Shown here piece by piece: positions 6,324 to 47,313 of a DNA stretch of 47,313 nucleotides. The notes beneath the pieces were generated by a model. The model did no database searches. It was not told the DNA's origin and worked only from the letters and a program-made list of their open reading frames with translations. The stretch's first letter is position 1. Each line of letters begins with the position of its first letter. The position numbers and the translations under genes are program-made. Source of the stretch: Bacteroidia bacterium (lineage in GTDB: Bacteria; Bacteroidota; Bacteroidia; B-17B0; Aurantibacillaceae); the NCBI GenBank assembly GCA_026414605.1, contig JAOAIP010000066.1, positions 1 through 47,313 on the forward strand, written 5' to 3'.

Positions 6324-6579
6324 TAAAAGTAATTTTTATGTTGGTTTTATGGTTGGGCTTTATCAATGGTGAAAGTTAGATGTTTTTCGTCCTTAAAACT
6401 TTACATCACCAGAGATGTTTTTTACTCACCCCCTTTTATTAGTTGAAAGTTGAAAGTGAAAAGTAAAAAGTAAAAAGTAAAAAGTAAAAAGTTTTAGGTC
6501 ACTATAACTTTAAATCTCTAAATTGAAAAAGTATTCTCATTACTTTCAACTTTTTACTTTCAACTTTTTGCTAATTTTT
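6324..6579. repeat. Intergenic repeats: truncated element end plus 7-bp arrays
   Basis: No gene is seen. ACTCACCCCC at about 6424-6433 looks like a truncated end of the double-hairpin element. It is followed by GAAAGTTGAAAGTGAAAAGT and then four to five tandem AAAAAGT heptamers (to about 6492). A 45-bp spacer separates this from the inverse arrays TACTTTCAACTTTTTACTTT (about 6541-6569). The arrays form an inverted pair. Confidence 0.7.
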
Positions 6580-7030
6580 GCGTGAGGGATGCGGAGGGCG
6601 GCGGCGAGCGAAGCGAGCCGCCGGTACTGCCTCGCCTTCGTTTGAGTGCGTCGTTGCGATGGGCGAAGTCCGAAGCGTCTTACGTCATTGCGAGTCCTTT
6701 TTTAAGAAGGGCGAAGCAATCTCTTATTGGGTGAGTGGTAGTTCTGAGGTTGCTTCACTTCGTTTGCAATCACGCGTGTTTCGCAGTGTTTTTAATAACA
6801 AAGGCGTGGATTGTTCGCCATCTGTTTTTTATATCAAGGTACTCACGAATGTGCTTAAATTAACACATTTAAGCACATTTACCGAAGCGATAGCGAAGCC
6901 CGAAGTAGCCCGACCCGAGCGGGCAACAGCCAATTGAAAATGGGAACGACATTTTATGTCGTTTAAAATTTTCATTATTTATTGGTTTGTTTTTGAATGG
7001 TGTATGCTATTGCCCGCGAGGGACACGCCC
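6580..7030 (+). repeat. Composite interspersed repeat, copy A
   Basis: About 451 bp from GCGTGAGGGATGCGGAGGG to GGGACACGCCC, much richer in G+C than the surroundings. Modules in order: a GGCGG...CCGCC hairpin with GAGCGAAGCGAG; a CGTCATTGCGAG module with paired arms GAAGCAATCTC (6713-6723) and GAGGTTGCTTC (6746-6756); a perfect 11-bp palindrome TGTGCTTAAAT/ATTTAAGCACA (6850-6877); ACCGAAGCGATAGCG...AGCCCGACCCG; and a nested terminal hairpin (6919-7017) with outer stem GCGGGCAA/TTGCCCGC and core AACGACA-tttta-TGTCGTT (6945-6963). Copies B (41156-41540, inverted) and C (47134 to the window end) share these modules. The long open frame across it is a by-product. Confidence 0.85.
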
Positions 7031-41155: not shown

Positions 41156-41540
41156 GGGCGTGCCCCTCACACACCACAGCATTTCCAATCTTTGTAAATG
41201 TTTTTATTCCACTGTTTCAAAACGACAAACTGTGTCGTTTAAAAATTTCAATCGGCTGTGGTGGGGTCGGGTCGGGCTGCTACGGGCTTCGCTTACGCTT
41301 CGGCAAATGTGCTTAAATGGTAATTAACGCACATTCGTGAGCACCTTGATAAAAAAGATAGACGGCGAACAACCCTCGCCTTATCGTCATTGCGAACGAA
41401 GTGAAGCAATCTCAATTGGAATTTTTACTACTCCACACGAGATTGCTTCGTTGCTTCGCTCCTCGCAACAACGCTGCAAAACGAAGGCAAGGCAGTGCTG
41501 CGGCTCGCTTCGCTCGCCGCACCCTCCGCATCCCTCACGC
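41156..41540 (-). repeat. Composite interspersed repeat, copy B (inverted)
   Basis: Same element as at 6580-7030, read on the other strand: GGGCGTGCCCC at the left and CCCTCCGCATCCCTCACGC at the right. Terminal nested hairpin: outer stem CACCACAGC (41172-41180) with GCTGTGGTG (41255-41263), and core AAACGACA-aactg-TGTCGTTT (41220-41240). The CATTGCGA module has perfect 11-bp arms GAAGCAATCTC (41403-41413) and GAGATTGCTTC (41439-41449). It abuts the double-hairpin element without a gap. Confidence 0.85.
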
Positions 41541-41655
41541 AACTCACCCCCTTCCCCTCTCTTTGAAAAAGAGAGGGGCGATAAGTTATTAAAATTATAA
41601 ACTATTGTCCCCCTCTCTAACAGAGTTAGAGAGGGGGAATTAAAGGGGGTGAGTT
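41541..41655. repeat. 115-bp double-hairpin repeat element, copy 3
   Basis: Outer inverted arms AACTCACCCCCTT (41541-41553) and AAGGGGGTGAGTT (41643-41655) are perfect over 13 bp. Inside are hairpins CCCCTCTCTTT/AAAGAGAGGGG (41554-41578) and CCCCCTCTCTAAC-aga-GTTAGAGAGGGGG (41609-41637, perfect 13-bp stem). It is the inverse of copy 1 in hairpin order. A remnant end, AAAGGAGGTGAGT, follows at about 41678-41691. Confidence 0.85.
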
Positions 41656-46661: not shown

Positions 46662-46758
46662 CTGAAAAAGATACGAATACTATGAAATATTTATTGCATT
46701 TTTGCGGTGAATTAAAATGGGAAGAGTATTTTTTTACACGCCCCCTTTTATTTATTAG

Positions 46759-46966
46759 TAGAAAGTGAAAAGTGGAAAGTGAAAAGTTAAGATTTGAAGA
46801 ATATGAAAATACAGAGATTTGAAGGTATCATTGCTTGGCAAAAAGCAAAGGATTTGGCGGTCAGTATTTATATTGAATTTTCTGTAAATAAAGATTTTAG
46901 GTTTAAAGATCAAATTCAACGACCGGGAAAAACTTTCTACTTTCCACTTTTGACTTTTAACTGAAG
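46759..46966. repeat. Inverted pair of 7-bp-periodic arrays flanking a gene remnant
   Basis: Left array GAAAGTGAAAAGTGGAAAGTGAAAAGT (about 46762-46788, given as heptamers GAAAGTG/AAAAGTG) and right array CTTTCTACTTTCCACTTTTGAC (about 46933-46955) are complementary over much of their length. CGCCCCCTTTTATTTATTAGT (about 46740-46758) precedes the left array, as a similar phrase does at 6427-6441. The truncated four-helix-bundle gene lies between the arms. Confidence 0.65.
46803..46964 (+). pseudogene. Truncated four-helix-bundle protein (23S rRNA intervening-sequence type)
   Basis: An open frame of 53 codons starts [20 protein letters not shown] and continues to KDQIQR. This matches the first helix and a half of the S23/four-helix-bundle family, which usually reads on into an MNNIAEGF-type stretch and has about 120 residues. 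After QIQR the frame runs into the heptamer repeat array and ends PLLTFN, so about 60% of the protein is missing. The repeat is the likely cause of the truncation. Too small to be called by standard gene finding. Function is lost or unknown; intact members are found within 23S rRNA genes and as free genes. Confidence 0.75.
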
Positions 46967-46978
46967 TTTGTGTGATTT

Positions 46979-47100
46979 ACTCACCCCCTTTAATTCCCAT
47001 TCTCTAAATGAATTAGAGAGGGGGAACAATTGAATGAAAAAACTTTCGTATCGCCCATCTCTTTTTCAAAAGAGAAGGGAAGGGGGCGGCACAGCCGCTT
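46979..47100. repeat. Double-hairpin repeat element, degenerate copy 4
   Basis: Begins ACTCACCCCCTTTAATTCCC, then TTCTCTAAATGAATTAGAGAGG, then CGTATCGCCCATCTCTTTTTC paired with AAAAGAGAAGGG. The right arm has decayed to AAGGGGGCGG. CGTATCGCCC is shared with copy 2 at about 2889-2898. Confidence 0.7.
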
Positions 47101-47133: not shown

Positions 47134-47313
47134 GCGTGAGGGATGCGGAGGGCGGCGAAGCCGGTACTGCCTCGAGGAGCGAAGCGACGAGGGGATTACC
47201 GAAGCGATAGCGTAGCCCGTAGCAGCCCGACCCGAACACACTACAGCCAATTGAAATTTTTTAAACGACATTTTTTGTCGTTTTGAAAAATTGATTGTGA
47301 ATATCAGCAATAG
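47134..47313 (+). repeat. Composite interspersed repeat, copy C (runs off the window)
   Basis: Starts GCGTGAGGGATGCGGAGGGC. The central CATTGCGA and TGTGCTTAAAT modules of copies A and B are replaced by about 25 bp (CGAGGAGCGAAGCGACGAGG), so the two shared ends are nearly joined. The terminal hairpin begins with AACACACTACAGCC (about 47234-47247) and the core AAACGACA-ttttt-TGTCGTTT (47263-47283). The right end lies beyond 47313. Confidence 0.8.

Follow-up and report, generated by a model that had tools for sequence, protein, structure and literature searches.

Small non-coding repeats with complementary ends, such as MITEs, ERIC, BOX and Correia elements, are found in bacteria, those of the BOX type being modular. 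The REP/BIME/REPIN repeats, which are mobilised by TnpA-REP (RAYT), consist of palindromes of 20–40 bp that carry a GTAG or CGTC tag, occur as many dispersed intergenic copies and in composite arrays, and are proposed to be recognised as a folded single strand. For a superfamily of CGTC-tagged REPs, one study reports occurrence in Bacteroidetes but no dedicated transposase, and also describes REPs inserted within longer palindromes (PMC3733652, BMC Genomics 2013).

The window analysed here, a 47,313-nucleotide stretch, is one (C31) of the 76 contigs that make up the 2.48-Mb draft assembly of a Bacteroidia bacterium, and contains three copies of a hairpin with the core AACGACA/TGTCGTT. This hairpin caps helix P2 of a modular, structure-forming and dispersed intergenic repeat, referred to here as the frame. 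The frame shares with REP/BIME/REPIN elements the many dispersed palindromic copies between genes, the composite arrays and the proposal that a folded single strand is what is recognised; however, it is branched, ranges from 77 to about 470 bp across its forms (77–150 nt in the compact forms) and resides in a genome without RAYT. The tag of RAYT-associated REPs was not found on the frame, which starts with GGGCGTG and ends with CACGC, CGTC being present only at the start of nested modules. Read by eye, these nested CGTCATTGCGA...GCAATCTC modules look similar to the CGTC-tagged superfamily, for which CGTC, an AT-starting stem of 8–9 bp and a loop of 4–5 would be diagnostic, whereas the frame and its AACGACA tip are not themselves CGTC repeats. 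As in MITEs, ERIC, BOX and Correia elements, the frame is small and non-coding with complementary ends, and it is modular as BOX is; dispersed insertion, as expected of MITEs, is reflected in at least 57 copies and in a site of one copy that lacks the element in two congeners. Conversely, the P1 ends comprise 5 bp only and covary rather than forming an inverted repeat of fixed sequence, and a parent transposon was not found, nor was a target duplication read for the frame. The element is filed among the palindromic, dispersed and modular bacterial repeats (REP- and MITE-like) but as a member of neither group, because defining features that were tested failed or stayed open.

The core was found without mismatches at positions 6945–6963, 41221–41239 and 47264–47282, in agreement with the preliminary description, and a scan of the window that allowed up to two core mismatches yielded five matches, compared with 0.07 expected. 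The three loops were also shown to differ as had been described, although that account had mixed strands: copy B is on the plus strand, whereas A and C are minus-strand copies, and the tips of A, B and C read in one orientation are AACGACA-TAAAA-TGTCGTT, AACGACA-AACTG-TGTCGTT and AACGACA-AAAAA-TGTCGTT, respectively. Copy A extends from GGGCGTG (7030) to CACGC (6580) on the minus strand, and the left arm of its outer P2 stem (GCGGGCAATAGC, 7006–7017) pairs with the right arm (GGCTGTTGCCCGC, 6919–6931) at 12 of 12 positions, one of them as G.T. On the plus strand within this copy, a nested palindromic module (CGTCATTGCGAG...GAAGCAATCTC, 6683–6723) was likened by eye to CGTC REPs (PMC3733652). 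Copy B (41156–41540, plus strand), which likewise runs from GGGCGTG to CACGC, carries the arms ACACACCACAGC (41169–41180) and GGCTGTGGTGGGG (41254–41266) and, in the P3 position, a module (CGTCATTGCGAACGAAGTGAAGCAATCTC ... GAGATTGCTTCG..., 41385–41473, plus strand) likened to the same REPs. The earlier claim that the outer arms differ between copies and yet pair holds fully for copy A, while in copy B pairing fails at 2 of 12 positions owing to two outer mismatches. The folding z-score of copy B was –4.33, and a second computed z-score was –5.7.

Copy C (47134–47313, minus strand) is cut by the contig end and goes on in contig C60, the first 141 bases of which are identical to the last 141 of the window and represent the sole other 100% match in the genome. 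Its right arm (GGCTGTAGTGTGT, 47236–47248, minus strand) had been predicted to find a complement beyond position 47313. With the partner recovered from C60 (ACACACCACAAC), 10 of 12 positions are paired and the other two are A.C mismatches, so that the arm was found where expected with imperfect complementarity. Two further repeats were observed in the window. One, CTCACCCCCTT...AAGGGGGTGAG at 41541–41655 and 46980–47095, is palindromic, contains two inner hairpins and often comes directly after the frame. The other consists of AAAGTTGAAAGT / ACTTTCAACTTT units ending in AAAGGGGGTGAGT at 6424–6575 and 46745–46970, and it also follows many of the copies in other parts of the genome.

Across the genome, AACGACA-N5-TGTCGTT yielded 43 exact matches, compared with none for a reversed-pattern control, and 40 of these hairpins sit inside one oriented composite element, the other three being located outside. 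Two AACGACA hairpins on contig C19 (L016 and L017) lie outside any frame and are a possible source of tips. In total, at least 57 frames were identified, about 41 of which carry the AACGACA tip. Nearly all copies start with TTTGGGCGTGCCCCTC or a close variant preceded by T-rich sequence. The outer left arm comes next and is separated by ~40 nt from the core hairpin, which in turn lies ~15 nt ahead of the right arm; TCGGGTCGGGCTGCTACGGGCTTCGCTATCGCTTCGG, at least one more hairpin and a terminal ...GCATCCCTCACGC complete the element. In frames without the AACGACA core, the tip site is empty or is occupied by a small hairpin (GTGGCTGTGCCAC) or by a long module that contains CGTCATTGCGA...GCAATCTC. 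In the fold, the two ends pair as P1 (GCGTG with CACGC), P2 (CCC...GGG) lies inside P1, and P1b (GGG.TN with NA.CCC) encloses P3; the P2 tip accepts almost any hairpin, the AACGACA hairpin being one of several interchangeable tips. Many elements start 7–50 nt past a stop codon, many copies are also located upstream of a gene, and several lie upstream of opposite-strand genes. Divergent gene pairs are under-represented around elements (5 of 40, compared with 33 of 132 background intervals).

Covariation across many copies, by which the preliminary description had proposed to judge the hairpin, was assessed in 41 aligned copies. Stem and core cells were paired in 95.2% of cases, compared with 90.6% after shuffling, and 46 double-change cells were observed, compared with 12.5 in shuffles; 0 of 500 shuffles matched either value. 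In the outer seven positions, a copy's own arms pair at 6.17, compared with 4.82 for arms swapped between types. The 19–118 pair fails in eight copies, and mismatches in the variable stem comprised 6 G.T and 10 A.C, small numbers that are only suggestive of an absent G.U preference. The hairpin of fixed core and changing stem is confirmed as real.

The frame was furthermore found by motif patterns in relatives of the same family, of the class and beyond. Among the matches listed in a GTDB scan were Flavobacterium, Algibacter, Pedobacter, Mucilaginibacter, Chitinophagaceae, Cytophagaceae, Tannerellaceae and others, and of 198 genomes of the phylum, 34 were found to carry the compact frame with a covariance model (R1) built from compact elements. 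This model, being too short-tipped, did not find the long forms of the own genome significantly, and the kinship of these with the compact elements therefore rests on shared motifs and helices. The P1 end pairs vary jointly (GCGTG/CACGC, GCGTT/AACGC, GCGCA/TGCGC, GCGCT/AGCGC, GCATT/AATGC, GCACA/TGTGC and others), as does P1b (GGG.TA, TT or TG with TA, AA or CA.CCC). Across the phylum, 300 of 300 P1 and P1b cells were paired. The phylum-wide counts are based on rows chosen by motif, and a few rows (e.g. elements of G051 that are shifted by one base) were excluded from the concatenated set, so that the full pairing leans towards the motif. Reading P1 and P1b off the same sequences also inflates this fraction but cannot alone create the 38 matched double changes observed, and the covariation score was reached by 0 of 500 shuffles. 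In whole compact elements, 98.7% of cells were paired and double changes were found at 11 of 21 pairs; one P3 pair is G.T (U.G) in 30 of 32 elements, besides which frame mismatches comprised 3 G.T and 2 A.C. The fold of the frame is thus conserved and covaries across Bacteroidota. Decay of repeats alone, against which the preliminary description had already argued, is excluded because structure is kept far beyond chance in both the genome and the phylum.

Rfam 15 contained no family above the gathering threshold at the element in the window and in three relatives, loose thresholds giving only chance miRNA-like matches. No description of the frame was found in the open-access literature searched, and searches with the motif letters returned only unrelated primers and sites. 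Three further occurrences were noted: a GC-rich form of the frame motif (GGGTCGGGCCCCTGCGGGCT; L090–L094) with 60 matches in a genome of another family of the class (G089); a frame that by eye apparently interrupts a DNA methyltransferase gene with a likely restriction gene adjoining (L133; G217 C1, about 2555400); and a frame in a metagenome-assembled genome labelled Spirochaetes (L186), reflecting transfer or mis-binning.

The preliminary description had read the matched change of both arms as the product of selection on structure. Structure is indeed kept, but the matched change alone does not show selection on RNA, as hairpin exchange or template switching would give the same pattern. Three observations favour the exchange of whole hairpins. 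First, unrelated tips are found on identical arm alleles. Second, on a tip tree built without the arms (from few columns and with many open forks), the arm type switches 7 times, at least 4 of them on well-supported branches, and the tail module 23 times. Third, two Flavobacterium genomes share an orthologous locus, its flanks being 88–94% identical, at which P3 reads AAGTCC/GGGCTT in the first genome and ATCTTTTAT/ATAAAAGGAT in the second, both arms having been replaced as a block. The suggestion that the stem serves as a copy-specific tag fails because many copies share arm alleles, ACACACC being the outer left arm in 19 of 41.

The frame has multiplied in this lineage, and its tips and arms are interchangeable. 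The AACGACA tip, numerous here, is absent from three congeners, gave single matches in only 2 of 120 relatives and had no record in the GTDB genome scan, a set that may not include the own genome. The gene order p411-DciA-M28 peptidase is kept in congeners G002 and G003, in which the DciA-M28 interval measures 9 nt and about 32 nt, respectively, compared with about 700 nt here, where it holds copy A and another repeat. As both congeners lack the element at this site, the simplest reading of the compared sequences is that copy A was inserted in this lineage after its split from them; the flanks of the empty site are too diverged for a target duplication to be read. An empty site for copy B was not found in the congeners, in which its flanking genes are not syntenic. 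In Flavobacterium and Algibacter, elements are shared at orthologous places and are 91–98% alike, exceeding their immediate flanks; these elements look old, with selection or homogenisation between copies behind their conservation.

We consider it probable that the element is a REP/MITE-like structured repeat which evolves by whole-hairpin exchange and is mobilised in trans by an enzyme. The repeat would work like a REP or a MITE: a trans-acting enzyme would act on the folded strand that it recognises, copying or moving the element into T-rich sites, and new stem sequences would spread through recombination between copies. Both arms would change together because such recombination would swap whole hairpins, while pairing of P1 and P1b may be kept by selection or by the enzyme's need for the fold. 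RAYT was rejected as the owner of the frame, given that this genome has no Y1 gene and that relatives show no clear association of such genes with the frame. A Y1 transposase (PF01797) was not found in the own genome, which is 96% complete, and among the Y1 loci retrieved from 14 frame-bearing genomes, a whole frame adjoins the gene only in G086 (L106), with a single motif at L100. In G086 (C3, 219330–219447; L106/L127), the frame lies, possibly by chance, ~200–300 bp upstream of the Y1 (RAYT-like) transposase gene and in the same orientation.

A tentative reading is that the frame represents an undescribed class of structured nucleic acid that is native to Bacteroidota and is served by a dedicated mobilising or binding protein of its own, with P2 as a plug-in site for any hairpin.

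A functional structured RNA or 3' UTR element, in which the matched changes would reflect selection on an RNA fold, is an unlikely though serious alternative. It is consistent with the perfect covariation of P1 and P1b, with the folding z-scores (–4.3 and –5.7), with the better conservation of orthologous elements than of their own flanks and with the constant P3 wobble pair, which hints at an RNA role of the frame. However, homogenisation between copies could also give this conservation, and selection on RNA pairing would be expected to make G.U mismatches outnumber A.C, whereas the variable stem showed 6 and 10, respectively. The uneven and lineage-specific copy number, the elements upstream of opposite-strand genes and the lack of an Rfam match also argue against it.

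During replication, template switching at the palindrome would copy one arm onto the other without selection or exchange between copies. The mechanism is documented (PMC8794818), and the excess of double changes in the tip stem over single G.T intermediates (46 and 6) would be in line with it. According to PMC8604942, loop inversion is possible through template switching; none of the 41 core loops, read in one orientation, was inverted. Moreover, the recurrence of arm alleles with unrelated tips and the replacement of P3 by another family-wide type point to exchange between copies, making template switching an improbable source of the pattern.

That the elements act as transcription terminators after genes would suit their frequent position behind stop codons and the scarcity of divergent gene pairs, but is very improbable: the closing hairpin lacks a U-run on either strand, many copies lie upstream of a gene, and a scan for intrinsic terminators (GC-rich hairpin and T-run) found no excess of such sites over shuffles. 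Chance palindromes or an assembly artefact, to which the several contigs ending within these repeats might point, are refuted by the exact matches against an empty reversed control and by the same frame in many independent genomes, single-contig ones included.

Covariation in repeats can stem from whole-hairpin exchange, and a covariation test alone is therefore no proof of RNA function. If the frame does represent an undescribed class, each lineage would dress the same frame with its own tip. The folded repeat extends over much of a major bacterial phylum, with up to dozens of copies per genome, and it breaks assemblies and enlarges intergenic regions.
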